From a bacterium (GTDB taxonomy: Bacteria > Patescibacteriota > Patescibacteriia > UBA9934), in NCBI GenBank assembly GCA_027592325.1, contig JAQCKO010000011.1:1-38839 (forward strand): a DNA stretch of 38,839 nucleotides. Reading direction: 5' to 3'. The notes below the pieces were generated by a model. That model was not told the origin of the DNA. It was given only the letters and a program-made list of their open reading frames with translations, and searched no databases. The translations under genes and the position numbers were made by a program. This document shows positions 2,238 to 38,839 of this stretch, in pieces. Numbering within the stretch: position 1 is the stretch's first letter; each line of letters begins with the position of its first letter.

Positions 2238-5200
2238 TGAAAAAAATCTTCCTCACGTTTATCATTGCCTTTGCGCTTTTCGGTGTCGCAAGTGTTTTTG
2301 TTCCCGCTGACGTGCTCGCACAGACCGATGGGCTTGAGGCGGTTAATGATGCAGCAGGACTTGCTGAACAAGACATTCGTATCACGGTCGCGCGATTGAT
2401 TCGTGTATTCCTTGGAGTGCTTGGCATTGTTGCCGTCGGATTGGTCCTTTACGGTGGTTTTACATGGATGACAGCAGGTGGAGACCCCAAAAAGGTTGAG
2501 GCGGCGAAGCGTATTCTCATTAATGGCCTGATTGGGTTTGTTATCATTTTTGCCTCGTTTTCTATTGCCTCATTCGTACTGAGCTCGCTTCTACGAGCAA
2601 CAGGAGCAGATGGAGGTGCATTAGGCGGAGACGATTTTATTCCAGGTGGTGGGCTTGGCGGAAGCGGCACGTCATCATTTATTGTCGCGGACATCCTTCC
2701 AGAAGGCGAGGTTCCGATTCGCAATGTAGAAGTACAGGTGGTCTTTTCTCGTACGCTGGATCGCACTCTCGACGATAGTACTATTGGGGAATATGTGACG
2801 ATTTCACGTGCAGATAGTGGGGCGATTATTGATGGAACATTTAATATCGGATCAAATCGTGTCAGTTTCACACCGGGAACCGTATGCCCAGATTTAGAGG
2901 ATGTTTTCTGTTTTGATAGCTTTACAACGTATCGTGTTACGGTAGACGATCGGCTGCGTGATGCTGACGGCCGTGCACTTGATTGTCGATCTGGTTGTTC
3001 AGCGAGTTTCACAACGGGCGATATTATTGACCTTGAGAATCCGAGCGTGAACTTCACCTATCCGGAAGATCGGGTACAAATGTTCCACGATCAGGAAGTG
3101 CAGGCGCTTGCGACGGATGATTATGGCGTTTCAACAGGAACCTTTGCTATTCAAGGGGAAGAGCCGTTCGATAGCGTGCCTGCTCCCGATCCATTCGCTG
3201 ACGAAGTTTACCTCGACGCGATTTGGCGCACGGACGGCTTAGAAGAAAATGTCTATTACACTCTTGAAGTTACCGCACGTGATCTTGCCGGGAATACCGA
3301 TGTAGATATTTTAAGAGTAAAAGCTATTCCGGTGCATTGTTTTGATGGTCTTCTGACCGAAGGAGAGGAAGAAGGAATTGACTGTGGAATTGATTGTCCA
3401 TCTTGTGATGGTATTGCTTGTGTTTCTGATGATGATTGTGCTGGAATCTGCCGCGATGGATTTTGTGCGTCACCACCACTGATCACCAATATCGCTCCAC
3501 TTTTTGGATCGCCAGGAACGTATGTCACCATTCAAGGAAATTCGTTCGGTCGGACGCTCGGTTCCGTAGAATTCACTGGTTCTGAGGGCCCAATAGACGT
3601 GCTTCCGGTAGCGTGTTCAGAAGGGTGGACAAATGATCAGCTGATTGTTCAGGTTCCAGAAGGAGCCATTCAAGGACCGATTACCGTTATTGATAGTGAT
3701 GGCCTTCGTGATACTTCTTCTGACGCCTACGGCCCGATTTTTGCCGATTTTGCTCCTATTGGTGGAATTGGGATAAATGTTTGTGGTATTTCCCCAGAGA
3801 ACGGTCTTTCAGGTTCCGTGGTTGTGCTTGAGGGTGATGGGTTCGGTGACCGTCAGGAAGATGGCTTAGTGACATTTGGTATTGAAGATGCGCGTACCTA
3901 CCCACTTTGGTCGAATGAGGCGGTGAATAGTACGGTCCCACCTCTTCCACAAGGAACTGTGAACGTGTTTGTATCTCGCGAAGCACGCGCTTCAAATCCG
4001 GTTCGCTACACGGTTCGCGCGAACGAAGCAGCCGATCCATTTATTGCTGCAGTGAATCCCGACGCCACCGCATCTGGTGAATACGTTACTCTTACGGGGG
4101 AGCGTTTTGGTGCGCTTCAAGGAACCGTTTGGTTTTCTGGGGAAGGAGGAGAATTAACGCTTGCAAGCATCGATTTTCCGGAAGCATGTTCTGATGATAT
4201 TTGGAGCGACGATGAAATTGTGATTATCGTTCCTGAGCTTGCGGCAGGTTCATATGAGCTTTATTTGAATACACAGAATGGTGATATTTCTAATCGTATC
4301 GCAATTGATATTGAAGCCCGTGACCCTTCTCCGGGTATTTGTAAGATTGAGCCTTCTTCTTCTGAAATTGGCGGAACGGTGACGATCCTCGGGGACAATT
4401 TCGGGGCTGTTGTAGGGGCGATAGCGTATTTTCCAGAAACGTTTGGAGAAATTGATTCATGGACGAATCGTGAGGTGGTCGCAGTGGTTCCAAATGGAGC
4501 ACAGACCGGGCCTGTTTCGCTCATTTCTGCGGAGGGGATCTCGAGTAATACTCGTCAGCTTGAAATTTTGTCTGAAGACGGAGAGAGTGTAGACGCAGGT
4601 CCACAACCCGCCATGTATGCTTGGCGATTTTCTACGGGTGAAGTCCCGCAAGTCCCGCAGCTTATTCGTGCCTGTAGTGACGAAATAATTAGTGCGGTCC
4701 CGAATGATCGATTTACTCCTGGTGGTGCATGTTCTAATGCCGTCATTCGGGCTGGATTCACCATGGTTATGGATGTATCAACACTCAACCGAGATACGAT
4801 TATCCTTGAGCGATGTGCAGACGAAAGCTGTACAGATATTGAAGCATTTACAGAAGGGAATATCACCACTTCAAGCACGCCTACGCAGACATTTTTTACA
4901 CTCTATCCAAATGACGGCGATTCACGATTGCGGCCCAATGCGAATTATCGGGTGCGCATTACAACAGAGGCGACCGCATTTGATGGTACGCCGCTCGCAC
5001 AAGATGCCATCTGGGAATTTGCGACCCGAGATGATGCTGCGGACTGCTCTGTTGAATCGGTACGCGTATCTCCAACGGCACAAACGCTGACAGAAGACGG
5101 ACAAACAACGGAATTTGAAGCGCTTCCAATGTTTGGTGCGTGTCAAATTTTACGATCAGACAGTTTTGATTGGTCATGGGATGCGGATCCCTCTATTGCG

Positions 5201-8200
5201 ACACTTGAAGAAGCATGTGCAGATGTTGATGCAAGTGCCTGTATTTTAGCAACGGCAGAAGCAGAAGGACTCACAGAAGTCACAGCAGTGCCACGTGATC
5301 GTAGTGAATCGCCAGGGACGCCTCCTCCGGCAGGCTCAGCACAGCTGACGGTGAATTTTGCCGATCCATACATTTCTGCTCGCTGGCCAGACTGTTCCAT
5401 TGCCTGCACTAATGGAGCCGTTGGTATGCGATTCAATACCGCTATAAACCTTGATCGTGGGCTTCCATCGCTTGAAGATGAAGGCATGATCGACCTATTC
5501 CGCTGCGATTCTGAATTCTGTACGAATTTAACGCCGATTGCGACATCAATTCGTTGTACAGAAGAAGTTGAAACAGCTGGAGGACGTCGCGGATGTTTGG
5601 AGACGGAATTTGATTTAAGCGATCGCGCGCTCGATACGCTCACGTATTATCGTGTGATTGCTTCTGGTCGCATGGTGTCAACGAGCGGAAATCCACTTAC
5701 GCGTCTCAATTATGGTACCGATTATAGTTGGACATTCTTAACACGTGAAGACAGTGCCGCTTGTGCAGTTTCGCGCATTGAATTGTCCCCAGACGATATG
5801 CTCTTGCATAGCATTGGTGACAGTCAGGTCTATTCCGTCACGCCGTATGGTGAGGCAGATAGTTGTTCGGTTGCAGGTCAGCGGCTTAGCGGGTATGACT
5901 ATGAATGGTCATATGAAGACCCGATTGTCGATGATGCGGGTGTTGCCGAATGGGGCAAGATTTCCGCAAGTTTGATTGATAGTGATCCGTCACGTATTTC
6001 CGCCGGATGTACCGAACGCTGTACGCCAATGGGAAGTGAAAATTACGGAGCCATTTGTGGAAATGGGCGCATTGAGTATGGAGAAGAATGTGATGGAGGA
6101 CCGAATTGTTCGGCGAATTGTTTGAATGAAGGGGCACTTAGTTGTTCATTCCTCTGCTCTGAAACGCGCGCTGCATGTTCGGTGAGTGGTGACTGCTCTG
6201 GTGGTGAATTTGATCTTTGTGAAGTCGCTGGTGGTGGATGTTGCGGAGATGGCGTCGTTGATGCAGCAGAAGAATGTGACGATGGAAATATCTTCAATGG
6301 TGATGGATGTTCAGCAATTTGTTTGAATGAAGGGGCTGATGCAGCAGGATTGACATGTGGAGATGGCATTGTAAGTCATTCAAATGAAGCAGGTGGAGAA
6401 GAATGTGATGACGGAAATCGGGCAAATGGGGACGGATGTTCATCGATTTGTCTTTTTGAAGGCTCACCTTCATTGGGCGGTATTGGGGCAATTTGCGGAA
6501 ATGGTGTCATAGAATCTCCATTTGAAAGCTGTGATGACGGGAATGAGGTTGACGGTGATGGGTGTTCTACACGTTGTTTGCGAGAAGGATCCCTTGGGAG
6601 CATCGGACTTTGCGGGAATGCCATCGTGGAAACAAATCCTTTGACGGATGCGGGAGAGGATTGTGATGGAGGGGAGGGATGTTCCGAATTTTGTTTGTAC
6701 AGTGGTTCATCTCTCCAATATGCATCCCTGTCTGTGTGCGGCGATGGTGTGCTAGGGCTTGGAGAGTATCCTTCTTGTGAAATTGGGGGTGCAGGCGATG
6801 GTCGAGTTGATCCGGAGCAAGTAGCTATTATTTCATCTGGCGCTCAGTCATTTGTTGATCCAGAAACACAACTTGCACGTGCAACCATACGTGTAGAAGG
6901 CGAAGGATTGGTTGCCGAGGCGACGTTTTCTCTTAGCTGCACGGCAACATCAGATGATGATTGTCCGCTCGGCCATGGTGTTGATTCAGCAGGTTGTTGT
7001 TCTCTTCGACCATCCGTCGAATTATATCCAAATGGTGACGCTGTTTGTAGGAATACGGCTTTGTATGCAGATTTTTCTGAGCGGATGGATTTAGAAAGTT
7101 TACAGTCTCAGGTAGCGATTCTTTATACGGGACCAGGATGTCCAGCGGGACATGGAGAGCGACTGGCAAGAACTGGCGGACGTCGCGGTATGCGTTTTGG
7201 TGTCCTCGGTGCTTTGCTCTTCGATATCGCAAGGGCACAAGACGAAAGTTGCCATTTGCCCATTACGTCACTCTCGCAAACAGAAGTAAATGGTGACTAC
7301 CGTGTGTATTTTGGACATACCGTCCTGCTTGATTCACTTGGTACCTATGAACTTGTTTTACGAAATGATGGTGAAGGTATTCGAACAGCAAGCGGGGTAC
7401 GACTTGATAGCGAAATTCGTTCATCGTTTACTGCTTCATCAGAAATTTGTTCGCTTGACGGAATTGCAATTATTGATCGTAGCGCAGCGCAGGAATTTTT
7501 CTTCACATCGATTGATGAAGTTCATGGTTTTAGTGCAGAGCCGTATTCTATCGTCAGCGGCATTGAATCTGCAATCGAACCAATTCCGGGTGTATATGAA
7601 TGGACATGGGGACCTTGGCTAAGTGATGATGTCTCGGTTGTTACCGTTACATCAGAAGAAAATTCCCCTGATAGTGAAGTGTCATCATCAAATAACAATG
7701 GCCGAGCATCTGTTGCAATTTCAGCGAATGTGATTGATCTTCGTGCTGCTGATCCGGTTGAACGGTCAGTTGTTGCGTCGCAAGATGTCACTGTACTTCT
7801 TTGTGAGAATCCTTGGCCACTTGAAGCACCGTATAGTTTTATTGATAGTGAAGAGGGTGTTTCGCTTGGTGCAGAAGAATTCCCTGGAGGGTGGATGCAT
7901 TTCAGCACACACTATTGTCGCGATCTTCCTGGAGAAGAGAATACCCTTCCAGCGGCGACCGTCATTGTGCCACCAGATGCAGGAACTGATACCGTATTAA
8001 AGGAGTATTTCTTTACATTCCCTGAAAGTGGAGATGCCATTGGGATTCGTATTGCCCAAAATCCTGAATTCCTTTCACCAGCTGAATGGTATGCCTCGCA
8101 AGGATTTAGCGGCTCGCCATCGGTAGAGAATATTGGCCTGTATGAAGCAGTACGTGATGGACGAACGCTGTATTTGGCTGCACCAAATCGTACTGACGCA

Positions 8201-11200
8201 GGGGCCATTTATTCGAATATTTACCTCATCTCGTATAACGAAGGGGCGCTTCCGGAGACCATCGATATTTACAATCAACTCAAAGATAATCTTGCCTTCA
8301 ATGTGAATGTTGAGAATCTTCGGCTTTGTTCGTCACCGGCTGGGCTGACAGATACCATTTGCGCGAGCGACCTTGACTGTAGTGGCGCGCTTGGAGAGAA
8401 TTGCGGCGCGAATCGAGATGCATTAGCGCGTGATATTGATCGCCTTACCGATCTTCGTGATATTGAAACTCAGCTGCAATCATTTGGTCAACTGAACGGG
8501 CTTTGTAGCGCAACAACCACGCAAAGTTGTTCAAATAATGGTGATTGCCCTGGCGGGGAAAGTTGTCTTAGTAGCTATCCATCGCTTCCTGCTGGAACTT
8601 TTGTTCGCGCCATCGATGCAAGTCTGTGGAATTCATGGGATGAGGTTCTTTCAACAGCATTAGGAGAAGATATACCAGTCGATCCAATCAATCGCTACGG
8701 AGTTTGTGAAGAAAAGAATCCAGAGACATGTGTTTCTGAATCAACGGGTGAGTATAGCTGTCCTGAAGGGTCACTTGCCTATCATTACCGAAGCACCGGG
8801 CCATTTAGCTATGACCTTTCTGCGGAGCTTGAATATAGCGAAGCCGGAACATATTGGATGAATGATATTGATCGCGATGCTGGTGATAATCTTCAAATTC
8901 GTGCTGGTCGTGTAGGAGATATTGCGGCAGGAATTGGCTTTGAAACAGCCTCGGCGTTCTGCTCAGGCATCAGCTACGGCGCGGTAAGTAGTTGTGGAGA
9001 TGGGGTGGTTGGTCCTGATGAAGTATGTGAACCTGGTCAACGTGGGGAATCGATTGCCTGCGACATTACCCCTGATGATGGAGTAGAAGGTGATGGTCTT
9101 CGCGCGACCATTTGCCGCGCAGATTGTTCCGGATTTGATGTCAGTGAAGCAGCTGCTTGTGTCCCAACCATTTGTGGAAATGGCGTCATTGATATCGGCG
9201 AAGCCTGTGATGACGGGGCGCTTAATGGTCGCTATGGATTCTGCGATGCAAGCTGCTCTGGTCTCAGCTTCCACTGTGGGGACGGCATGCTTGCGGGTGG
9301 TGAAGTTTGTGACTGTGGCATTGATGCAGATGGACGCACCATCGGTGGCCTCGATTGTGTCGTGGCAAATGGGGCGTATAACAGCAACCCTGCACTTACA
9401 TGCTCGGCGAGTTGCACAGGACCTGGTCCTTATTGTGGAGACGGTATTGTGCAATTTGGTGAGGTTTGTGACGGCAATGTGGATACATGGTCAGGTGAAC
9501 TCTGCGTTGGTGGCGATCATGAAGGATTCCCATGTACTTCTGATGATGCATGCGGTGATGGGGGAGTGTGTGGAACCGGTGGCGGTGGCCCAGCCTCGGC
9601 AGCGAGCTGTCCGGTGACGAATGTCTGTCTTGGCGGCGACCCTGAACTCATTGGATACGCCTGCACACCAGGATTTGATGAACGAGATTGTGGTCCAGGT
9701 GGCATTTGTTCTGCTACTCCTGCACCGACGCTTCGAACACGCACGTGTCATGACGACGGAGCAGGCGGCCAGCTTTGCAAGTGGACACAGCGTAATTGGG
9801 CTTCTATTGATTGTGTTGCGCTATCAAGTTGTGGAAACGGCGTTGTCGATGCGGGGGAAGAATGTGATGACGGAAACGATAATCCGAATGATAGTTGCAC
9901 GACGTCATGCCGGGCGAATGTTTGCGGAGATGGCTTTGTTTATGATGGTGTCGAAATTTGCGACAGCGGAGCATCGAATGGACTGACTTGCGAAGCGCCA
10001 TACGGAGCAAGTTGTGCATATTGTTCTGCCGAATGTCGTTTACTCTTCAATTCTGGTGCTTTTTGCGGCGATAATGTCATTAGCGGTGGTGAATTCTGTG
10101 ATGGTCTCGCCATTGCCGAGGGCGGTGCAGCAGGGATCTGTAATGGTGGCCCGAATGCAAGCGAGTCATGTACCGTAAATGGAGACTGTGGCGCTGGCTT
10201 CATTTGCGAACTTCCTGTTTGTGGTGCGAGCTGCGATGCAACGTGTCCTGCGAATTATGTTCTGGCAGATGTTCAATTAAAAGACAATCAAGTTGGTTCT
10301 ATTCGTGCAAATAGTGTTGAGCTTCTTTCCTACGATCCAGATAGCGAACGTGAACGCCTTGGAGCGCCTGATGCTGCCACGTTGTATATGCCAGCTTGTC
10401 GGGTTATGAGTCATTTAACGGCTGACGTGAGTTTTAATTACGAGTCGGTGGACTCTCGTATTGTCTTTGTCACGGATGTTTCTGGGTCTATGCGTCTTCC
10501 GGCGTCTGACGACGGACCTTCACGTATCGATGTGACAAAAGGTGCGCTTAATACGGCAATCGATCGTATTTTTGACGCAATTGGTGACTTCGCAGAAATC
10601 GCGTTAGTGAGTTATGACGACGATGCGCTTGTTGAGGATTTCCACGGGTACGACGAGCACTATGTGTTAACATCAGAAATCGCTTCGTATTCTTCTGAAG
10701 AAGGCGGTGGGACAAATACGTATGAGGGACTTGGAGAAGCGTATAGATTGCTGAAGGACGTAGAAGCGCCAGAGGGAACAAGCAAAATCGCTGTATTGAT
10801 GACAGATGGAGATTGGACGGGAACGCTGCCAGGTTACAATCCAGCATTTTGGGCCTGTCAAATGAAAGATGCAGGGATGCAAATTTATACCGTAAAAATT
10901 GGTTCAGGAGATATTATTCTCAAAAATGAGGTTGGTGATGTTCTTTCTGCAGAGGGCATTTGGTCTGATGGAGAGGAATGCGATAGCTATAAGAATCGCG
11001 TGACGGATGAGTACTATGAGACATATGAAGCGTATTTGGATAGTTTGGAAGTTGATCGCGATTTGGGACGTCCTGATGTGCCGCAGACGATGGCGCGAGC
11101 AGGTGCAACCATTCCGGCTTCAATCAAAATGCAATCGAAACCATTTTCATTGCCGCGTTTCAGTGTAGCTGCCTTCCTCAGTATTGATGCCGCTCTTGCA

Positions 11201-11623
11201 ACTGAAATTTGTCATCCAGAAGAGGAGCCCGTATTTGTTGATGATCCATTTCGAGGGTTTATTCCGAGGGTTATTCACGGATCAACCATTGAACTTGCGT
11301 GTCTTTCTAGCGGGAATATAAATCGTGATAACGGCATTGACTATGCGCATCAAGGAGAAAGTGAAGAAGAGATTGAAGCGATGTACGATGAAATTGTGAA
11401 TGCGATTATTGGAGCAACAGCGATTATTGTCGATGATCCAAGCTCCCCAAGTGTTGGGGCGATAGTGGAAGGAAATGACGTAGAATTCCCGCTTCCAGAT
11501 AATTTCGTCTGTGATCCGTTCTCTGAGCAGCCTCTTCCACTTCAGCTGACATTCGATGCCATCGATCCATTATCTGCTACCGTTGAAATCAGTGATGTGA
11601 CTATTCACTATTGTTCCCCATAA
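2237..11623 (+). CDS. Giant surface protein: pilin-like two-TM N-terminus, IPT/TIG and Big_5-like domains, two Cys-rich DUF4215-type repeat clusters, C-terminal vWA domain
   Basis: 3,129-aa ORF (ATG at 2237 overlaps upstream TGA); CGDGVVDAAEECDDGNxxNGDGCSxxC repeats; DVSGS…T…TDGD MIDAS near 10,450-10,850. Confidence 0.9.
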   Translation: MKKIFLTFIIAFALFGVASVFVPADVLAQTDGLEAVNDAAGLAEQDIRITVARLIRVFLGVLGIVAVGLVLYGGFTWMTAGGDPKKVEAAKRILINGLIGFVIIFASFSIASFVLSSLLRATGADGGALGGDDFIPGGGLGGSGTSSFIVADILPEGEVPIRNVEVQVVFSRTLDRTLDDSTIGEYVTISRADSGAIIDGTFNIGSNRVSFTPGTVCPDLEDVFCFDSFTTYRVTVDDRLRDADGRALDCRSGCSASFTTGDIIDLENPSVNFTYPEDRVQMFHDQEVQALATDDYGVSTGTFAIQGEEPFDSVPAPDPFADEVYLDAIWRTDGLEENVYYTLEVTARDLAGNTDVDILRVKAIPVHCFDGLLTEGEEEGIDCGIDCPSCDGIACVSDDDCAGICRDGFCASPPLITNIAPLFGSPGTYVTIQGNSFGRTLGSVEFTGSEGPIDVLPVACSEGWTNDQLIVQVPEGAIQGPITVIDSDGLRDTSSDAYGPIFADFAPIGGIGINVCGISPENGLSGSVVVLEGDGFGDRQEDGLVTFGIEDARTYPLWSNEAVNSTVPPLPQGTVNVFVSREARASNPVRYTVRANEAADPFIAAVNPDATASGEYVTLTGERFGALQGTVWFSGEGGELTLASIDFPEACSDDIWSDDEIVIIVPELAAGSYELYLNTQNGDISNRIAIDIEARDPSPGICKIEPSSSEIGGTVTILGDNFGAVVGAIAYFPETFGEIDSWTNREVVAVVPNGAQTGPVSLISAEGISSNTRQLEILSEDGESVDAGPQPAMYAWRFSTGEVPQVPQLIRACSDEIISAVPNDRFTPGGACSNAVIRAGFTMVMDVSTLNRDTIILERCADESCTDIEAFTEGNITTSSTPTQTFFTLYPNDGDSRLRPNANYRVRITTEATAFDGTPLAQDAIWEFATRDDAADCSVESVRVSPTAQTLTEDGQTTEFEALPMFGACQILRSDSFDWSWDADPSIATLEEACADVDASACILATAEAEGLTEVTAVPRDRSESPGTPPPAGSAQLTVNFADPYISARWPDCSIACTNGAVGMRFNTAINLDRGLPSLEDEGMIDLFRCDSEFCTNLTPIATSIRCTEEVETAGGRRGCLETEFDLSDRALDTLTYYRVIASGRMVSTSGNPLTRLNYGTDYSWTFLTREDSAACAVSRIELSPDDMLLHSIGDSQVYSVTPYGEADSCSVAGQRLSGYDYEWSYEDPIVDDAGVAEWGKISASLIDSDPSRISAGCTERCTPMGSENYGAICGNGRIEYGEECDGGPNCSANCLNEGALSCSFLCSETRAACSVSGDCSGGEFDLCEVAGGGCCGDGVVDAAEECDDGNIFNGDGCSAICLNEGADAAGLTCGDGIVSHSNEAGGEECDDGNRANGDGCSSICLFEGSPSLGGIGAICGNGVIESPFESCDDGNEVDGDGCSTRCLREGSLGSIGLCGNAIVETNPLTDAGEDCDGGEGCSEFCLYSGSSLQYASLSVCGDGVLGLGEYPSCEIGGAGDGRVDPEQVAIISSGAQSFVDPETQLARATIRVEGEGLVAEATFSLSCTATSDDDCPLGHGVDSAGCCSLRPSVELYPNGDAVCRNTALYADFSERMDLESLQSQVAILYTGPGCPAGHGERLARTGGRRGMRFGVLGALLFDIARAQDESCHLPITSLSQTEVNGDYRVYFGHTVLLDSLGTYELVLRNDGEGIRTASGVRLDSEIRSSFTASSEICSLDGIAIIDRSAAQEFFFTSIDEVHGFSAEPYSIVSGIESAIEPIPGVYEWTWGPWLSDDVSVVTVTSEENSPDSEVSSSNNNGRASVAISANVIDLRAADPVERSVVASQDVTVLLCENPWPLEAPYSFIDSEEGVSLGAEEFPGGWMHFSTHYCRDLPGEENTLPAATVIVPPDAGTDTVLKEYFFTFPESGDAIGIRIAQNPEFLSPAEWYASQGFSGSPSVENIGLYEAVRDGRTLYLAAPNRTDAGAIYSNIYLISYNEGALPETIDIYNQLKDNLAFNVNVENLRLCSSPAGLTDTICASDLDCSGALGENCGANRDALARDIDRLTDLRDIETQLQSFGQLNGLCSATTTQSCSNNGDCPGGESCLSSYPSLPAGTFVRAIDASLWNSWDEVLSTALGEDIPVDPINRYGVCEEKNPETCVSESTGEYSCPEGSLAYHYRSTGPFSYDLSAELEYSEAGTYWMNDIDRDAGDNLQIRAGRVGDIAAGIGFETASAFCSGISYGAVSSCGDGVVGPDEVCEPGQRGESIACDITPDDGVEGDGLRATICRADCSGFDVSEAAACVPTICGNGVIDIGEACDDGALNGRYGFCDASCSGLSFHCGDGMLAGGEVCDCGIDADGRTIGGLDCVVANGAYNSNPALTCSASCTGPGPYCGDGIVQFGEVCDGNVDTWSGELCVGGDHEGFPCTSDDACGDGGVCGTGGGGPASAASCPVTNVCLGGDPELIGYACTPGFDERDCGPGGICSATPAPTLRTRTCHDDGAGGQLCKWTQRNWASIDCVALSSCGNGVVDAGEECDDGNDNPNDSCTTSCRANVCGDGFVYDGVEICDSGASNGLTCEAPYGASCAYCSAECRLLFNSGAFCGDNVISGGEFCDGLAIAEGGAAGICNGGPNASESCTVNGDCGAGFICELPVCGASCDATCPANYVLADVQLKDNQVGSIRANSVELLSYDPDSERERLGAPDAATLYMPACRVMSHLTADVSFNYESVDSRIVFVTDVSGSMRLPASDDGPSRIDVTKGALNTAIDRIFDAIGDFAEIALVSYDDDALVEDFHGYDEHYVLTSEIASYSSEEGGGTNTYEGLGEAYRLLKDVEAPEGTSKIAVLMTDGDWTGTLPGYNPAFWACQMKDAGMQIYTVKIGSGDIILKNEVGDVLSAEGIWSDGEECDSYKNRVTDEYYETYEAYLDSLEVDRDLGRPDVPQTMARAGATIPASIKMQSKPFSLPRFSVAAFLSIDAALATEICHPEEEPVFVDDPFRGFIPRVIHGSTIELACLSSGNINRDNGIDYAHQGESEEEIEAMYDEIVNAIIGATAIIVDDPSSPSVGAIVEGNDVEFPLPDNFVCDPFSEQPLPLQLTFDAIDPLSATVEISDVTIHYCSP

Positions 11624-15067: not shown

Positions 15068-16318
15068 ATGGCTGACGCGTTCATCACAGGACTAGACATT
15101 GGATCATCAACCATCCGTCTTGCTATTGGGCAAGTAATGGAAGCAGAGAAAGGGAGAACATCTCTTCACTTTATTGGGGCAATCGAAGAACGTTCAAGCG
15201 GTGTACATAAAGGCAGTATTTCAAGTCTTGATGATGCCGTTTCTGCGATTTCTAAAGCGCTTGAAAAGGCAGAGCGTATGACGGGAGCGCCCGTAAACAG
15301 TGCATGGGTGTCCATTGCGGGGCATAATATTTTAGTACAGGAAAGTCGAGGTGTTATTGGTGTCGGCAAGCAAGATGGGGACATTCAAGAAGAAGATGTA
15401 GAACGTGCGATAGAGGCTGCGAGAACGGTTGCAACACCATCGAATTACGATATTTTGCATGTTATTCCAAAGAGTTTTACGGTAGATGGACAGCATGGCA
15501 TTAAAGATCCTGTTGGGATGAGTGGTATTCGTCTTGAAGTTGATGCCGTGATTGTACAAACACTCTCGTCTCAAATTAATAATCTTACCAAAAGCATCTA
15601 CCGTACCGGTCTACAAATTGATGATTTGGTTTTTTCGCCACTTGCAACAGCGGAAGCGGTGCTTACCTATCGTCAAAAAGAGCTCGGCGTTGTTGTTATT
15701 GATATTGGGGCAACATCGACGACGATGGCAGTATTTGAAGAAGGGGATATGCTCCACGTTTCGGTACTGCCGATTGGAGGTGATCATATTACAAATGATA
15801 TTGCGATTGGGCTACGGACCTCACTTGATGTTGCCGAAGAAGTGAAAAAACGCATTGCGAGCGGAAGCCCAAATATGGTAGATCCGAAAGAGCAATATAC
15901 ACTTCAAGATTTTGGTTCAGAAGAACGTGATATTGTGAAAAGAAGATTTGTTGCCGAGATCACGCGGGCGCGTCTTGAGGAGATTTTCGAGACTGTCGAT
16001 GCGGAACTCCAGAAAGTCGACCGTTCAGGGATGCTCCCAGCTGGCGCCGTCATTAGCGGAAAGTCGGTTGTCCTTGAAGGGCTTTTCGATGTTGCAAAAG
16101 ATGTCTTGCGGCTCCCGGTGAGCGCTGGGAAACCGCAGGGAGTGACAAGTGTTGTTGACGAAATTTTTGATCCGGGTTTTGCAACCGCAATCGGGCTTGC
16201 AAAATGGGGGCATAGTGTAAGAAGCACGGCAAAACGTGGATTTGGCTTTCATATTGGGGGCGGGGCACAGCAGGTGGCCGATCAACTTCGTAAGTGGTTT
16301 AAGTCACTCATTCCATAG
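15068..16318 (+). CDS. ftsA: Cell division protein FtsA
   Basis: ITGLDIGSSTIRLAIGQ…, VVIDIGATSTTMAVFEEG, amphipathic C-terminal tail; near ftsZ. Confidence 0.95.
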   Translation: MADAFITGLDIGSSTIRLAIGQVMEAEKGRTSLHFIGAIEERSSGVHKGSISSLDDAVSAISKALEKAERMTGAPVNSAWVSIAGHNILVQESRGVIGVGKQDGDIQEEDVERAIEAARTVATPSNYDILHVIPKSFTVDGQHGIKDPVGMSGIRLEVDAVIVQTLSSQINNLTKSIYRTGLQIDDLVFSPLATAEAVLTYRQKELGVVVIDIGATSTTMAVFEEGDMLHVSVLPIGGDHITNDIAIGLRTSLDVAEEVKKRIASGSPNMVDPKEQYTLQDFGSEERDIVKRRFVAEITRARLEEIFETVDAELQKVDRSGMLPAGAVISGKSVVLEGLFDVAKDVLRLPVSAGKPQGVTSVVDEIFDPGFATAIGLAKWGHSVRSTAKRGFGFHIGGGAQQVADQLRKWFKSLIP

Positions 16319-16323
16319 GGGAG

Positions 16324-16444
16324 GGTCTTCACAGCTCACCTCATCTAGCGGTTCCAATTTCCGGTCCTCGCTCAATGTACATTTTTAGTACGCTTCACTT
16401 CGGTCCTCGATTGTCACCACTATCTAAGGTAATCTGAGCAGACC
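16324..16444 (+). repeat. Dispersed ~122-nt hairpin element, copy A
   Basis: GGTCTTCACAG…CTGAGCAGACC outer stem (9/11); core shared with copies B and C. Confidence 0.85.
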
Positions 16445-16546
16445 GTCAGGAAGGCTGTTTTTTTTGTTTGGTAAATCTATGAGCAGTTTGAGCGTTCGTT
16501 CTGCATACCGAAGCTGTCTTTTCTAAAGTAGCGAATCTCGTTGTTC

Positions 16547-17299: not shown

Positions 17300-17401
17300 A
17301 CCCCCTATCTCAGTAGCATTCGAATAATGAAATGTGAAAATTTGTCAAAGTCAATAGCCCTGTGCACACTTCCATTTGCGAGTCGGGCAGGGTATGATAA
17401 G

Positions 17402-17413
17402 TTTGTATACAAA
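17402..17413. promoter_or_regulatory. Perfect palindrome TTTGTATACAAA just after a TATGAT -10-like hexamer, upstream of ftsZ
   Basis: 12-bp palindrome at 17402-17413; TATGAT at 17393-17398. Confidence 0.4.
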
Positions 17414-17460
17414 TTGTCCCCAAGGAGGTAACTAAGTGAACACAAACCGTATTCGACCCT

Positions 17461-18723
17461 ATGGCACAGGTGAAACCCGATATCGAAACATTCGCAAAAA
17501 TCAAAGTTCTTGGTGTTGGCGGAGGTGGAGGATCGGCGCTAAATCGCATGATTAAAGAGAAAGTTCGAGGGGTTGAATTTATCGCTGTGAACACTGATGT
17601 GCAGGCGCTTCATACGAATGAGGCAAAAGAAAAGGTCCCAATTGGAAAGACCGTCACACGCGGTCTTGGTGCGGGGATGAATCCAGACATAGGGAAGCGT
17701 GCAGCGGAAGAGAATGCGAATGAGGTTCGTAATGCTATCGCCGGTGCAGATATGGTGTTTTTAACGGGGGGACTAGGAGGGGGAACGGGAAGCGGAGCGC
17801 TGCCTGAAATCGCAAAAATTGCAAAAGAGTCAGGCTGTCTTACAGTTGCCGTCGTAACAAAACCATTTCTTTTTGAAGGAGCGCAGCGACGACGTATCGC
17901 AGATGATGCCCATTCTGAACTTGCGCAGCATGTCGATACCATCATTACTATCCCGAATGATCGGGTTCTTCAGATCATCGACAAAAAGACATCGCTTCTT
18001 GAAGCTTTTCAAATTGTGGACGATGTCCTTCGACAGGGAGTTCAAGGTATTTCAGAAATTATCACGCTTCCAGGACTCATCAACGTCGACTTTGCCGATG
18101 TCAAAGCCATTATGCAAAGTGCAGGATCGGCACTCATGGGTATAGGGACGGCGAGCGGAGAAAATCGTGCTGTAGAAGCGGCCAAATTGGCGATCGCAAG
18201 TCCTCTTCTTGAATTATCTATTGATGGAGCAAAGGGAATTCTCTTCACAGTGACAGGTGGTGCTGATCTTGCGATGTATGAGGTAGCAGAAGCGGCCAAG
18301 GTTATTACTGGGTCTGCAGACGATGACGCTCGTGTCATTTTTGGTGCGAACATTGACGATACACTGCAAGATGAAATTCGTATAACGGTTGTAGCTACCG
18401 GATTTGATGGTGTTCAAAAACGCTCCGCTCCAAGTCGAGCTGGTGATATTGATATTGCTCCACAAGCGAGCTGGTCTCCAAGCGCAAGGTTCGAATCAGC
18501 TCCTGCTCAGCAGGTACGAACACAAGTGCACGTTTCTGTGCCGGAGCCAGAGCCAGTCCAACGAACCACTTCTGTTTTTGAAACACGACATAGCGATGAC
18601 ATCCGTGAGCCAGCCTCTGATCCTGAGCCCGTGAGACCGTTCCCGCAAGCAGAGGAAACTGTGCAGAAGCAAGACGAAGACGATTTAGGCATCCCTGCCT
18701 TCATACGCCGCAAAATGATGTAA
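17461..18723 (+). CDS. ftsZ: Cell division GTPase FtsZ
   Basis: [13 protein letters not shown], tubulin signature [18 protein letters not shown]-terminal conserved peptide [14 protein letters not shown]. Confidence 0.98.
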
Positions 18724-33215: not shown

Positions 33216-33857
33216 ATGGCAAGCTCGTATAATCGTCTTATTCCACTCATTTCTGGGTGGCCAACTATTCTGCTTTTTGCTGGGATTGGATTGCTTTTAG
33301 GGGTAGTTTTGTCGTTCACGCAGCAACTTGAATATAGTTCGACAACAAGATTACTTATTACCCAGCAATTAGGGGCAGTAGATGCGTATACGGCGGGGCG
33401 ATCCGCTGAACGTATTGCCGAAGATTTAGGAAATGCGGTGCAAACGTCCACGTTTTACCAGGCATTTTTAGGGGCATCTGATGGATTTGACACCAATTTT
33501 TTCTCTTCTGATGAGCTAAAACGCCGGAAACAATGGCAAAAGGCGGTTACGACGTCGGTCTCCCGTTCTTCTGGACTATTGACCATTCGGGCCTTTCATC
33601 CAGATGCAAATCAGGCAAATATCCTTGCTGCAACGGTCGCAGATGTGCTGTCAGAAACAGGTTGGGTGTACTCTTCGGGCGGAAATATTGCGATTCAGCT
33701 TGTCGATACAGCCGTAAATTCGCGGTATCCGGTCCGTCCGAATGTCTTTGTAAATGGATTTTCCGGCTTTATGCTCGGGATTTTAGCCGGAATTGGCTAT
33801 ATTTTACTGCAAGTGGAGCAGCTACGCCGCCGGCATCAGCTCATGCACGAGGGGTAG
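33216..33857 (+). CDS. Wzz/YveK-like chain-length determinant family protein
   Basis: Two TM helices bracketing extracytoplasmic domain; VDTAVNSRYPVRPNVFVNGFSGFMLGILAGIGYILL. Confidence 0.75.
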   Translation: MASSYNRLIPLISGWPTILLFAGIGLLLGVVLSFTQQLEYSSTTRLLITQQLGAVDAYTAGRSAERIAEDLGNAVQTSTFYQAFLGASDGFDTNFFSSDELKRRKQWQKAVTTSVSRSSGLLTIRAFHPDANQANILAATVADVLSETGWVYSSGGNIAIQLVDTAVNSRYPVRPNVFVNGFSGFMLGILAGIGYILLQVEQLRRRHQLMHEG

Positions 33858-33977
33858 AAATGCTCAGCTTACCTCATCTAGCGGCTCTAATCTCCGGTCC
33901 TCGTTCAACGTACTAGGAAGTACGCCTCACTTCGGTCCTCGATTATCACCACTATCTAAGGCAATCTGAGCATTTCT
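33856..33977 (+). repeat. Dispersed ~122-nt hairpin element, copy B
   Basis: AGAAATGCTCAG…CTGAGCATTTCT perfect 12-bp outer stem starting inside the TAG stop; core as in copies A and C. Confidence 0.9.
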
Positions 33978-34046
33978 GTGTTTTCTGCCTCGGATTTCAT
34001 CGATTCTAACGCGTTTTTGTGCTGGAGCGATGCTGCCTTTTTGGCT

Positions 34047-34074
34047 GAATGACACCACTATCTGAGGCAATCTG
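34047..34074 (+). repeat. Partial 3' copy of the dispersed element
   Basis: TGACACCACTATCTGAGGCAATCTGAGC matches the 3' end of copies A-C. Confidence 0.7.
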
Positions 34075-34101
34075 AGCTTTTCTAGATAATGTGATTCGAT
34101 C

Positions 34102-34122
34102 CTCCCCCTTTTCAAGGGGGAG
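34102..34122. repeat. REP-like palindrome CTCCCCCTTttcAAGGGGGAG
   Basis: Perfect 9-bp inverted repeat. Confidence 0.7.
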
Positions 34123-34151
34123 TTAGAGGGGGTCTTTCGTGTCATTCCGTC

Positions 34152-34171
34152 ATTCCTGCGAAAGCAGGAAT
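34152..34171 (+). repeat. REP-like palindrome ATTCCTGC-GAAA-GCAGGAAT in CGTCA…TCCAGCGTA context
   Basis: Perfect 8-bp stem; related to 37310-37384. Confidence 0.8.
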
Positions 34172-34241
34172 CCAGCGTAAAATAGACAAAACGATTTTAT
34201 TTAGGCCTCTTTCTACATTCTACCGTCTACTTTCTCCCCAG

Positions 34242-34270
34242 TTGACAAAAAAACACGCTTGATTTAAGGT
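34242..34270 (+). promoter_or_regulatory. Promoter P1, upstream of a long hairpin
   Basis: TTGACA-17 nt-TAAGGT. Confidence 0.55.
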
Positions 34271-34277
34271 CAGCGCA

Positions 34278-34355
34278 GAAAACCCCATTTGATCCCGGAC
34301 GTGTCGCTTCGTCTCCTCCTCGAAGTGATGCTCCGGGTTCAAGTGGGGCTTTTCT
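34278..34355 (+). terminator. Long imperfect hairpin ending in GGGGCTTTTCT: attenuator, terminator or self-terminating small RNA
   Basis: AGAAAACCCCATTTGATCCCGGA / TCCGGGTTCAAGTGGGGCTTTTCT with inner CTTCG…CGAAG hairpin. Confidence 0.65.
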
Positions 34356-34356
34356 A

Positions 34357-34385
34357 TTGACAAAAAATGCAAAAAATGATACATT
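34357..34385 (+). promoter_or_regulatory. Promoter P2 of the GC-rich gene at 34599
   Basis: TTGACA-17 nt-TACATT. Confidence 0.7.
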
Positions 34386-34419
34386 TGCTAGTCCTTCAAA
34401 AGCTGCGAAAAGTTGCTGC

Positions 34420-34523
34420 GAGGGGTGAACCTTACAAAAACCGTATTTCCTTCGGTCTGGCGTCCAGTGAATAACCCCTCCTTCGTTCACTGTTGATGTC
34501 GGACCTAAGGAGATACGGTTCAC
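34420..34523 (+). promoter_or_regulatory. Structured 5' leader candidate with SD sequestration
   Basis: ACCGTATTTCCTTCGGTC pairs GACCTAAGGAGATACGGT; inner CAGTGAA/TTCACTG; loop ACCCCTC complementary to upstream GAGGGGT; GTGAACC complementary to GGTTCAC. Confidence 0.6.
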
Positions 34524-34598
34524 AATGGATCGCTCCACAACGCCCTGTTGTGGGGCAAAACAAATCAGCTGCCGGCAGAGACCGGCATGGGAGATCGC

Positions 34599-35768
34599 AT
34601 GCGCAGCATGTTCGCGGCCTTCGTGGCCCTCTTCGCCGTCCTCGTGGCGGCGACTCCTGCCTTCGGGCAGGCCCCTGCGGGCGACCCCCGCGTTGACGCC
34701 CTCGAGCTGTCCACCGGTGAAAGCCGGAAGGACATCGAGACGCTCGATGAGCGCCTCCGCCGCGCGCGTGCCGCCATTGCGGCCGCGCGGAAGCAGAGCG
34801 AGGCGAACGCAAAGCGCATGCAGGAGGGCCTCGGCACTTGCATGGCGCAAGATGTCGACGTGGGCATCTGGTTCTACGGGATGCTGACGTCCGAGGACCC
34901 GTCGTTCGACTTCACTTCGGCGAAGACGGACGAGGGGATCAACATGGAGACGGCCATGAGCCTGATCCAGACATACCTCGAGTGCGAGCTTGGCCACGAG
35001 GACTTCCGCGGCATCAATGTTGCGTTGGTCCAGTACATGGCCTGGCGTGCCGATCAGCACGCGGCGAACGAGCGGGCACGCATCGAGCTCGACTCGATGG
35101 CCCGTGACGTCGTCGCGGCGCAGGACATCGATCTCATCGTCGGCGAACATAACCGAGTCCGGGAGGCGATGAACGGCTCCTCGCTGCTCGTAGGCTTCGG
35201 CCTCGGTGGCGGCGTGCTGTCGGCGCCCAAGATGGACGGGTTCCTGCCCCCCGGCGTGACCGGGAATGGCGGGTTCTCGCTCTTCATGGGCGGGGCCGCT
35301 GGTGGTTCGCGCGCTGACGTGTCGCTCACCGCCCTCGTTGGCGGAACGAGCGACATCGACGCCTCGGCCACCGGGACGGTAGGCTGGCGCATTGGCGCTG
35401 GCTACGTCGGTCCCCTGCTGCGCGTCGCGCGCACCAGCTACGGCGCCCTTGATGGCGTGGCGGGTTCGGTGGGCGGCATGACGTCGCTGCAGGGCGGAGC
35501 GGCTGTCTCGATCCCGTTCGCGGGTTCGGGCAAGTCGTTCGGCACCTTCGAGTTCCGGGCTTCCGTCTTCGGCGGGGCTGGGTTCTCGGGCGTGAACGGC
35601 GATGCCCACCTGATCCCCGAGGCCGAGATGGCCGACGGGTCGGTGATCTCCCGCAGCCGCACCGTCGGCTCGGGGGGAGGGCTCGCGCAGCTGGTGGTCT
35701 GGTTCGGGGGTCGCACGGCCCTCGACCCGATCACCCTGCCGGGCTCGGTCGGCCTCGGCGTCGAGTGA
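34599..35768 (+). CDS. GC-rich secreted protein: coiled-coil N-terminal half, Gly-rich beta-structured C-terminal half
   Basis: Signal peptide MRSMFAAFVALFAVLVAATPAFGQAPA; ORF open to TGA at 35766; ATG 34599 preferred for its SD and signal peptide. Confidence 0.8.
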   Translation: MRSMFAAFVALFAVLVAATPAFGQAPAGDPRVDALELSTGESRKDIETLDERLRRARAAIAAARKQSEANAKRMQEGLGTCMAQDVDVGIWFYGMLTSEDPSFDFTSAKTDEGINMETAMSLIQTYLECELGHEDFRGINVALVQYMAWRADQHAANERARIELDSMARDVVAAQDIDLIVGEHNRVREAMNGSSLLVGFGLGGGVLSAPKMDGFLPPGVTGNGGFSLFMGGAAGGSRADVSLTALVGGTSDIDASATGTVGWRIGAGYVGPLLRVARTSYGALDGVAGSVGGMTSLQGGAAVSIPFAGSGKSFGTFEFRASVFGGAGFSGVNGDAHLIPEAEMADGSVISRSRTVGSGGGLAQLVVWFGGRTALDPITLPGSVGLGVE

Positions 35769-35781
35769 GCGATCCGTTCGT

Positions 35782-35815
35782 GACGGGAGAGTGTGCATCT
35801 GTGCACTCTCCCGTC
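35782..35815 (+). terminator. Intrinsic terminator-like hairpin after the GC-rich gene
   Basis: GACGGGAGAGTG…CACTCTCCCGTC perfect 12-bp stem. Confidence 0.75.
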
Positions 35816-35891
35816 GACTACTACATTTTGAGAGGTGATATGTGCTTATAAACAGTCATTATTACCTCTGAAGAGGTTGTCCTTTTTACCC

Positions 35892-35977
35892 TGATTCCGT
35901 GCGATTTTAGCGGCTTTATTGGCCATTGAAACCGCACGGAATCAACCGGGCGGAAATCCAATTCTGGGCTTCCGCCC
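35892..35977 (+). promoter_or_regulatory. Two consecutive strong hairpins in the leader of the next GC-rich gene
   Basis: TGATTCCGTGCG…CGCACGGAATCA (12 bp perfect) and GGGCGGAA…TTCCGCCC (8 bp perfect), ending just before AGGAGG. Confidence 0.7.
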
Positions 35978-35994
35978 AAACCTTAGGAGGACCC

Positions 35995-37074
35995 ATGCGG
36001 TTCATCAGCGCGACCTTCCTCACCGCCGCCCTCACGGGCTGCGGGCACATCCCCTACGGGGGAGCGTGCGACACCCTCTACCTGACCGAGGCGAACGCCT
36101 ACGGGCAGGCCGAGGAGAGCGAGTACCTCGACTGCGACGGCGACGGGGCGGCGGACCACCTGTCCGACGCCATGATCAACCCCTACACCATGGGGGCGGA
36201 CGGGAGCACTTTCCCGGCGCTCCTGGTGAAGGCGACCTTCTTCGCCGGCACGGCGGCCATCGAGGCCACGTGCGATGGCGACTGGGCCGAGGTCGTGGGG
36301 GTGACCCACGACACCGCCGAGTGGATGGGGGTGACCAACATGCCCCTGCCGGCGAGCGGCACGGCGGCCTGCCTGGTCCGGTTCACGAACCAGGACGGCA
36401 ACCGCATCGACATGTCGATGGTCGACAGCCCGTTCACGTTCGGGAGCGACCTCTGCATCGTTCGCGACGCGGAGGGGAGCCTCTCCGAGCCCACGCTCAC
36501 GCACAACTGCGGGGAGTTGGGCGCGGCGGGCGACGACCCCGATCCGACCGAGCCCGACCCGGGTCACGGCGGGGGTGGTGGTCCGACCGACGAGACCTAC
36601 GGTGTGGGCGACTACGAGACGGTGAACGTCACGGTCGACATCCGCCTCGACGCCGTCTACCCCATGACGGACGTGGCCATCATCGTGTGGGGCGAGCCCA
36701 CCAGCTACGAGGACCACGCGGTCCTGCGCAACTGGTGGGGCGACGGAGGGATCTTCGGCTCGTACGGCGAGACCGACCGGATCACCTTCGACATCCCCGT
36801 GATGGCGAGCGGCGAGACCTTCGTCCAGCTCCAGGTGGACCTCGGCGGGAACGACTACCTGGTGTTCAACACCGGGGTCGAGGGTCAGCTCGACTGGCGC
36901 GTCGACGACATCACGGTCGACGGCCTGTCCGTCGATACCACGCTGCTCCGCAACGACGGAAAGCACCTCGAGTACGCGGGGCAGCCGGACAGCGTCATCC
37001 CCGTCGACTGCGAGAAGCGGTTCGACGAGGGGACATGTGGTGGGGACCTCTGGTTCGTTGTCGAGATGCCCTGA
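35995..37074 (+). CDS. GC-rich predicted lipoprotein, Asp/Gly-rich
   Basis: SD AGGAGG, lipobox-like MRFISATFLTAALTG-C; internal Gly-rich linker separating two domains. Confidence 0.82.
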   Translation: MRFISATFLTAALTGCGHIPYGGACDTLYLTEANAYGQAEESEYLDCDGDGAADHLSDAMINPYTMGADGSTFPALLVKATFFAGTAAIEATCDGDWAEVVGVTHDTAEWMGVTNMPLPASGTAACLVRFTNQDGNRIDMSMVDSPFTFGSDLCIVRDAEGSLSEPTLTHNCGELGAAGDDPDPTEPDPGHGGGGGPTDETYGVGDYETVNVTVDIRLDAVYPMTDVAIIVWGEPTSYEDHAVLRNWWGDGGIFGSYGETDRITFDIPVMASGETFVQLQVDLGGNDYLVFNTGVEGQLDWRVDDITVDGLSVDTTLLRNDGKHLEYAGQPDSVIPVDCEKRFDEGTCGGDLWFVVEMP

Positions 37075-37113
37075 CGGGTATCTCGGTCGACGGACCAACG
37101 CACGGCTCAGGCC

Positions 37114-37142
37114 GGCGACTTACACGACTCAGTGTAAGCGCC
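37114..37142 (+). terminator. Terminator-like hairpin after the lipoprotein gene
   Basis: GGCGaCTTACAC…GTGTAAGCGCC. Confidence 0.6.
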
Positions 37143-37165
37143 GCGCCTGGGCCGTTCTTCTATTT

Positions 37166-37287
37166 ACAAGGCTTCAGCTTACCTCATCTAGCGGCTCCAA
37201 TCTCCGGTCCTCGTTTAACGTACGTTTCAGTACGTCTCACTTCGGTCCTCGATTGTCACCACTATCTAAGGCAATCTGATGCCTTGT
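37166..37287 (+). repeat. Dispersed ~122-nt hairpin element, copy C
   Basis: ACAAGGCTTCAG…CTGATGCCTTGT outer stem (11/12); core as in copies A and B. Confidence 0.9.
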
Positions 37288-37309
37288 TGAGTTTGTCTAC
37301 TAAGCAATT

Positions 37310-37384
37310 CGTCACCCCTGGCACCGACCAGGGGTCCAGCGTATTCTGACAAGCGATGGATTCCTGCTTTCGCAGGAATGACGA
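37310..37384. repeat. REPIN-like pair of inverted REP palindromes
   Basis: CGTCA-CCCCTGGcaccgaCCAGGGG-TCCAGCGTA…CGATGGA-TTCCTGCtttcGCAGGAA-TGACG. Confidence 0.75.
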
Positions 37385-37414
37385 GTAACAAACGTTTCAA
37401 CGTTTTTAACGCAA

Positions 37415-37434
37415 GGTCGAGGCATGCCTCGACC
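37415..37434. repeat. Perfect 20-bp palindrome GGTCGAGGCATGCCTCGACC
   Basis: Direct reading. Confidence 0.8.
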
Positions 37435-37488
37435 CTACACATCTCCAACCTGCTACTTGTCACCTAAAACCTGATTTCCCTTAAATAC

Positions 37489-37517
37489 TTGACGTTTTTG
37501 CCAATTTGTGGTATATT
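37489..37517 (+). promoter_or_regulatory. Sigma70-type promoter for the MopE-like lipoprotein gene
   Basis: TTGACG-17 nt-TATATT. Confidence 0.75.
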
Positions 37518-37612
37518 TACCTGTCGAATTGACCTCGATTTTATGAGCCGCAAGGCCACAAATCAGGCAAAATCGATGCGTTCAATACAACCTCAACGGT
37601 CCTGGAGGACCC

Positions 37613-38839
37613 ATGCGACAGATGTTTTTCTTCTTCGTCTTCGTGGCCGCGTTCTCGTTCGGCTGCCGCGGCGGCCGGGCAATCGATTACGGTGTCGAGG
37701 CAGGGACCTCCCCGGTGGCTTCGGCCGCCGGGGAGTCTGACACGGACGCCGACGCAGATGCCGATGCCGATGCGGACTCGGATGCAGACAGCGACACCGA
37801 TTCCGACACGGACACCGACACGGACACCGAGACTGGCACCGATGGCGAGACCGTCGAGTGCTGGTCCGATGCGGACGGCGACGGCTACGGCTTCGGCCAG
37901 GCCGTCGAGATCGTTGCGGGCGAGTGCCCCGACGGCTTCGTCGAGAACGGCGGCGACTGCGATGACACCGACGACGACGTCCACCCGGACATCGAGGAGG
38001 TCGACGACCTCTGCGACAACGAAATCGACGACGATTGCGACGGCGACGTGGACGGCGACGACAGCGAGTGCCCCGAGGACGACGACATGGTCGTGTGCTT
38101 CTGGGACGCTGACGGCGACGACTTCGGTGACCCGGACGACTCGTCCGAGCGCGAGAGCTGCTCCGGCAGCTGGGTGCGCAATGACGACGACTGCGATGAC
38201 ACCGACGACGACGTCAGCCCCGACGAGATCGAGGACTGCGACAACGGCATCGACGACGACTGTGACGGCGACGTCGACGAGGCCGACTCGGAGTGCCCGG
38301 AGGACCCCGACATGGTGGTCTGCTACTGGGACGCCGACGGCGATGGCTACGGCGACCCCGAGGACTCGTCCGAGCGCGACAGCTGCTCCGGCAGCTGGGT
38401 GCTGAACGACGAGGACTGCGACGACACCGACGACGACGTCAGCCCCGACGAGATCGAGGACTGCGACAACGGCATCGACGACGACTGTGACGGCGAGGAA
38501 GACCTCGACGACGCGGACTGCGACGACGCGCCGGAGGACGACGACGGGTTCTGCCCCGACCGCCCCGGTGACTACCACGAGCTCTGCATCGTGGGCATCG
38601 CCGATGGCATCGAGGAGTGGGACCTCGCAATCTTGGTCGACTGGGCCTGCGACGAGCACTGGGTCGACTACGATGGTCGAGCCTTCGTCGACAGCCCGGT
38701 ACTGTCCGAGGACGGCGATTCGATGTGCATCGGCTTCTACGGCGACAACATCGAGATCAACGGCGCGAGCCCCGACAGCCCCGTGTGGGGTGGGTACGCG
38801 ACCGGTGACTGCGGCGACCTCGACGGCTTGTACGAGATC
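37613..38839 (+). CDS. GC-rich predicted lipoprotein with Asp-rich tract and three MopE-type (PF11617-like) metal-binding motif repeats; runs off the window
   Basis: Manual translation MRQMFFFFVFVAAFSFGCRGGRAIDYGVEAG…DTDADADADADADSDADSDTDSDTDTDTDTE…WSDADGDGYGFG…DCDDTDDDVHPDIEE…CDNEIDDDCDGDVD…, open to base 38839; absent from the supplied ORF track. Confidence 0.88.
   Translation, partial: MRQMFFFFVFVAAFSFGCRGGRAIDYGVEAGTSPVASAAGESDTDADADADADADSDADSDTDSDTDTDTDTETGTDGETVECWSDADGDGYGFGQAVEIVAGECPDGFVENGGDCDDTDDDVHPDIEEVDDLCDNEIDDDCDGDVDGDDSECPEDDDMVVCFWDADGDDFGDPDDSSERESCSGSWVRNDDDCDDTDDDVSPDEIEDCDNGIDDDCDGDVDEADSECPEDPDMVVCYWDADGDGYGDPEDSSERDSCSGSWVLNDEDCDDTDDDVSPDEIEDCDNGIDDDCDGEEDLDDADCDDAPEDDDGFCPDRPGDYHELCIVGIADGIEEWDLAILVDWACDEHWVDYDGRAFVDSPVLSEDGDSMCIGFYGDNIEINGASPDSPVWGGYATGDCGDLDGLYEI

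Follow-up and report, generated by a model that had tools for sequence, protein, structure and literature searches.

A mobile hairpin element folding from one defined strand in Candidatus Uhrbacteria and distant bacteria

A non-coding element of about 122 nt is present in 33 copies, as counted with covariance model R1, in an 826-kb freshwater genome of Candidatus Uhrbacteria (G000), to which the 38,839-nt stretch of contig analysed here (the window) belongs. One defined strand of this element, designated F, is under selection for a near-continuous hairpin fold, in which GA/GA loops recur, the GTAC apex is conserved and the basal arms vary freely yet mostly pair. The element is mobile: it is dispersed, has lately been active in at least one relative, and is present or absent at orthologous sites. 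Moreover, its copies are placed with a definite polarity, resident copies are constrained in place, and the family extends across phyla. In our best reading, these are members of a new family of REP- and attC-like mobile hairpins, acting more likely as DNA than as RNA.

Copies in the window and the strand that folds

Three copies had been proposed from the sequence of the window, and all three were recovered by the covariance model, which was built on the minus strand from 16 of the 28 BLAST matches in the genome itself. The copies and their neighbours are as follows.

15068..16318, plus strand: ftsA (Pfam PF14450, 8e-35), with its TAG stop just ahead of copy A
16323..16445, minus strand: copy A, in the ftsA-ftsZ interval, 4 nt past the ftsA stop codon
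33216..33857, plus strand: Wzz/GNVR-like membrane protein of 213 aa (match below Pfam cut-offs)
33856..33977, minus strand: copy B (141.8 bits; RNA z -12.8)
34053..34083, minus strand: fragment in the orientation of copy B and 75 nt past it, corresponding to one basal part of another copy (31 nt at 94% identity)
37166..37287, minus strand: copy C, within the GC-rich stretch at the window's right end (132.1 bits; RNA z -12.4)

Copy B shares its first two bases with the TAG stop of the 213-aa gene. The 3' motif CACCACTATCTRAGGYAATCTGA occurs four times, in the three copies and in the fragment at 34053-34083, versus 0.00 occurrences expected in shuffles. Read on F (here the minus strand), copy B runs AGAAATGCTCAG-A-TTGCCTTA-GA-TAGTGGT-GA-TAATC-GA-GG-A-CC-GAA-GT-GA-GGCGTACT-loop, and then back.

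The GC content amounts to 60-67% at 34001-38839 of the window versus mostly 43-51% elsewhere, and the open reading frames there have no Pfam match; this part, which holds copy C, could be of foreign origin or the chimeric end of a contig. A GC-rich hairpin stretch at 37100-37165, upstream of copy C, was also found at about 450-540 of locus L017, upstream of a shortened copy on contig C4 of the same genome, and this recurrence of stretch and element together suggests a duplicated module that includes the element. A second dispersed palindrome, CCTGCTTTCGCAGGAATGAC / GTCATTCCTGCGAAGGCAGG, often adjoins element copies (37357-37380 of the window and elsewhere in the genome). It should be added that positions 2234-11623 hold an open frame of 3129 aa with TIG, DUF4215 and VWA domains and a T4SS-pilin-like N-terminus, a putative giant surface protein.

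Every copy folds better as the reverse complement of the strand drawn in the original prediction, which consequently depicted the complementary strand. The mean minimum free energy over 19 copies was -48.6 kcal/mol for F versus -32.4 kcal/mol for its complement, and the RNA fold of copy B reached -65.6 versus -37.7 kcal/mol. Against dinucleotide shuffles, the z-scores of the minus strand taken as RNA were -12.8 (B), -12.4 (C) and -8.0 (A), versus -5.3, -6.1 and -3.1, respectively, for the strand drawn earlier. The large advantage of F lies in its G-U pairs and in GA/GA internal loops at periodic intervals: several symmetric loops of GA opposite GA lie between short helices, below a GTAC apical stem. 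The loop sequences would be compatible with tandem sheared G-A pairing. With DNA parameters F was favoured too (-26.3 versus -16.5 kcal/mol for copy B), so the preference in folding does not separate RNA from single-stranded DNA. As to the basal arms, which had been described as differing between copies while still pairing, this holds for copies B and C, while copy A pairs with internal mismatches.

The bias towards one strand was also evident in the kinds of mismatch. In the first alignment G-U and A-C cells stood at 94:23, and in 126 copies from three genomes at 426 versus 108, or about 4:1, with the same direction in each genome. The ratio remained at 2.6-3.9 in sense, antisense, convergent, divergent and tRNA 3'-foot contexts; being independent of the direction of the neighbours, this bias argues against a neighbour's transcript as the folded form.

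Spread of the family and selection on its structure

Within the GTDB family, model R1 found copies in 21 of 23 genomes (range 0-93 per genome), the richest being G019, G016, G013 and G022 with 93, 70, 48 and 38 copies. Beyond the family, the apical pattern TGAGNCGTACN{3,8}GTACGNTGANCGA matched 113 stretches in the genome_contigs set, versus about 3 expected by an estimate from base counts, in records that include Uhrbacteria, Gracilibacteria, Saccharibacteria, Parcubacteria/Paceibacterota, Desulfobacterales, Smithella, Syntrophomonas, Lachnospiraceae and Clostridia. A comparable long hairpin was formed in nearly all of the 34 such loci that were folded. A second model, R2, trained on 24 apical-pattern loci, none of them from the family of the window, found the window's copies again at E of about 2e-10. 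It matched 31 of 287 Patescibacteria genomes, patchily over many families, and all 16 genomes holding seed loci, the richest of which had at least 146, 83, 74 and 62 copies. These records derive mostly from metagenome bins, so that single taxon assignments may be wrong; contamination explains multicopy presence in distant taxa less easily.

Several structural variants were observed. In the Loclat bin (G346), copies also stand head to tail in tandem, repeating about every 128 bases (C150, 15867-16223; C161, 8244-8472). Two shortened copies without the apical part (L017, 537-621; L021, 1466-1553) apparently arose by deletion between two direct internal GGTCCTCG repeats. Some G019 copies carry an extra hairpin, CCCCGCCGTTCGCGAACAGCGGGG, inserted in their 3' half (L213:8333-8448 and 17328-17504).

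That the structure is under selection, one of the two explanations in the original prediction, is strongly supported by covariation in the larger set of copies and by the changes at orthologous sites. Across 126 copies, double-sided changes were seen at 41 of 44 pairs, 91.7% of cells were paired versus 65.3% after shuffling, and the covariation score was 0.643, versus 0.185 for shuffled and at most 0.108 for slid partners. The arms in G000 follow the patterns AGAA-N5-CAG and CTG-N5-TTCT, where N5 is free and yet mostly paired.

Most of the sites shared by G019 and G016 are too diverged for vertical orthologs, and constraint in place was therefore tested only on copies with homologous flanks. 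In 11 such ortholog pairs, mostly at tRNA genes, 67 compensatory changes were counted versus 12 expected, and 26 broken pairs versus 157 expected, under a random model that keeps substitution types, not phylogeny, and with pairs counted in both directions. Single changes on F gave G-U 48 times and A-C 11 times. The compensatory excess was present with F in either orientation, sense or antisense, relative to the tRNA. It should also be mentioned that three species of one genus have a vertically inherited copy that directly adjoins a T-box-like motif, GTACGGTGGCACCGCG (L217:1909-2030, L246:1318-1443 and L088).

Mobility, polarity of placement and the search for a mobiliser

The other explanation offered at the outset, a mobile element, was likewise supported, and since selection on structure and mobility both find support, the two are not exclusive. 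Seven copies in G019 are at least 96.6% identical, arms included. Between G019 and G016, 18 non-tRNA sites with syntenic orthologous flanking genes were empty and 9 occupied, and all three testable tRNA sites held the element. Between G000 and G016, four of five testable sites were empty, the ftsA-ftsZ interval of copy A among them, and one tRNA-Ile site was occupied in both. Many shared sites hold dissimilar copies, which suggests repeated insertion or fast turnover at favoured places.

The original prediction had further proposed insertion into the loop of existing terminator hairpins, with arms that predate the core. Clean empty sites aligned between congeneric species revealed insertions with no pre-existing arms or inverted repeat of this kind, and some insertions lie just past the T-tract of a terminator, not within its loop. 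The arms thus travel with the element, as the same arms in the seven G019 copies and the conserved outer ends also indicate, and insertion into terminator loops was rejected.

Placement is polar. A stop codon, often a TAG that overlaps the element, lies no more than a few bases from the start of most copies in G000. Ends of non-tRNA genes lie within 10 nt of the 3' foot of F in 42 of 78 cases and of the 5' foot in 11 of 48; adjacency to gene borders is partly due to short intergenic spacers, and only this polarity is taken as informative. At loci outside Uhrbacteria, in other phyla, the 3' foot abuts gene ends by 15 versus 4 in our own count. A copy was found within 30 nt of about 40% of tRNA genes (20/47 in G019 and 20/46 in G016), so the family may shape tRNA expression or mark a targeting rule. 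With G000 included, 43 of 48 tRNA adjacencies are at the 3' foot, 34 of them at the start and 9 at the end of the tRNA; copies at tRNA starts are in sense orientation, mostly 0-9 nt ahead of the gene. Of 86 co-directional settings, 58 have F antisense to the genes on both sides. Flanks showed no fixed promoter or target motif beyond weak A/T at the feet.

The position of many copies directly past a stop codon, and of some beside terminators, might recall bidirectional terminators or stabilisers of 3' ends that recombination has duplicated into a family. We consider this very improbable, as neither foot has a T-tract, copies also stand a few nucleotides before tRNA genes and start codons, and many are missing in congeneric species.

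A more serious rival is a structured RNA made from F (a tRNA leader, a processing RNA or an antisense RNA); its genes would have spread into a dispersed family, and selection would act on RNA pairing and sheared tandem G-A. The very low RNA folding energy (z -12.8), the preference for G-U on F, the compensation in place at tRNA and T-box loci and the 34 sense copies directly before tRNAs, nearly all within 9 nt, speak in its favour; for the sense copies 0-9 nt before a tRNA an RNA leader is a natural reading. Against it, F is mostly antisense to both neighbours in the co-directional settings with the G-U bias undiminished, the 5' flank carries no conserved sequence or promoter-like signal, and copies turn over between congeneric species. 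This rival appears unlikely. The selected structure of the original prediction stands; its RNA form is less certain, the strand bias being independent of the direction of neighbouring transcription.

Candidate drivers of mobility were searched for by domain. Y1_Tnp (RAYT) was found in none of G000, G019 (93 copies), G007 and the Loclat bin (at least 146 copies), and RAYT was rejected as driver, being missing where copies are most numerous. DDE_3 (IS630) was found in none of the 23 family genomes, Transposase_20 (IS110) in neither G000 nor G019, and RVT_1 (reverse transcriptase) in none of G000, G019 and G007. IS630, IS110 and reverse transcriptase as drivers were discarded on their absence from G000 and G019, and a group II intron or retro-element on that of RVT_1 from G000, G019 and G007. 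The IS30/IS3-type genes of G019 were dismissed by inspection, their ends not matching. The lack of Y1_Tnp, DDE_3, Transposase_20 and RVT_1 in G000 and G019 is counted against the mobile-DNA reading; it is possible that a general host enzyme acts as the mobiliser.

One might also take the element for an ordinary MITE, derived from a DDE transposon such as an IS630/Tc1-like one with a TA target, and ascribe its palindromic look to long terminal repeats only. This would account for a dispersed, short, non-coding, intergenic element and for TA at both feet of young G019 copies. TA was found beside both feet in 12 of 94 copies in G019 and in 0 of 92 in G000 and G016, the empty sites being too diverged for a base count. 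However, none of the 23 family genomes has a DDE_3 transposase, the IS30/IS3 genes of G019 showed no matching ends on inspection, and terminal repeats predict neither compensatory change nor conserved internal loops nor a one-strand G-U bias. An ordinary MITE is therefore improbable.

Proposed mode of action and comparison with known systems

We judge it probable that this is a small non-coding mobile hairpin element of REP/attC-like character, which acts through its folded F strand. Action at the level of DNA is what we would rather expect, presumably in single-stranded form, and an RNA made from F is possible but doubtful. Under the preferred reading of a mobile DNA hairpin, F would be extruded, or exposed as single-stranded DNA in replication, and would then fold; the folded strand could be the substrate of a structure-reading enzyme, as for REP elements and integron attC sites. 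Integration would be polar and bring the 3' foot of F next to a gene end or a tRNA gene. Resident copies, especially those beside tRNA genes, would retain a function where they are, as the continuing compensatory change at these sites suggests. A host function would explain this compensation, and the persistence of copies at tRNA genes, no less well than selfish behaviour would. Up to 93 copies in small, streamlined bacteria, with strict selection for folding on one strand and occurrence in very distant bacteria, point to a machinery of wide distribution that recognises folded DNA or RNA, and the covariance models and empty sites make the questions of this machinery and of the tRNA genes testable.

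None of the 4227 Rfam families matched the window's copies, nor seven loci at E up to 1, and phage, plasmid and viral contig sets gave no match to the element. A literature search returned no description of this hairpin family, which does not prove that none exists. Likeness to group II domain V or a hammerhead core was rejected, as sequence and loops do not fit.

REP sequences of the GTAG and CGTC superfamilies are high-copy, strand-specific extragenic hairpins near the 3' end of the upstream gene, at varying downstream distance (PMC3733652), and in vitro TnpA-REP takes REP in single-stranded form as its substrate (PMC8266576). The element shares this placement and single-strand logic. It differs in size (about 122 nt and about 44 pairs, versus REP of 20-40 nt with stems of 5-13 bp), in its GA/GA loops and conserved apex, and in having no cognate RAYT in G000, G019 or the Loclat bin with its 146 copies. 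In three sets of 26, 66 and 94 copies, GTAG was near the 3' foot in 2, 1 and 2 copies and near the 5' foot in 1, 3 and 22, with no conserved tag, and a CGTC tag was near a foot in 0-5 copies.

The attC sites lie just after a stop codon. They are imperfect palindromes whose bottom strand folds and is antisense to the upstream gene (PMC6393395). The element resembles them in its varied sequence with a kept one-strand fold and in an F strand antisense to the upstream gene beside the stop codon; this likeness in placement is not exclusive, as the element also uses tRNA starts. Unlike attC, in which the arrangement is the reverse, its conserved part is apical and its basal arms vary, and it is mostly dispersed singly and also found beside tRNA genes. 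The attC boxes RYYYAAC/GTTRRRY were near the feet in 0 of 186 copies; an identity with REP or attC on the basis of their tags was thus rejected.

Bacterial MITEs (Correia/NEMIS, RUP, ERIC and enterobacterial RU) are also short, non-coding, dispersed, intergenic and mobile in trans, whereas the element shows compensatory evolution along the whole helix and a one-strand bias, in a family without an IS630-kind transposase. Furthermore, two accounts report unexplained multicopy intergenic palindromes in Geobacter genomes, some said to occur in many other genomes (PMC2700814, PMC2996986). Compared by description, alignments aside, these are similarly multicopy, intergenic and of Desulfobacterota type, and they could be relatives of the element. 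It is conceivable, if short of probable, that all this represents a cross-phylum class distinct from both REP and attC, made up of single-strand mobile sites guided by structure (or of resident structured RNAs). Its GA/GA-punctuated hairpins would be read by a widespread, not yet linked enzyme, targeting to gene ends and tRNA genes would be polar, and selection on the residents would continue.
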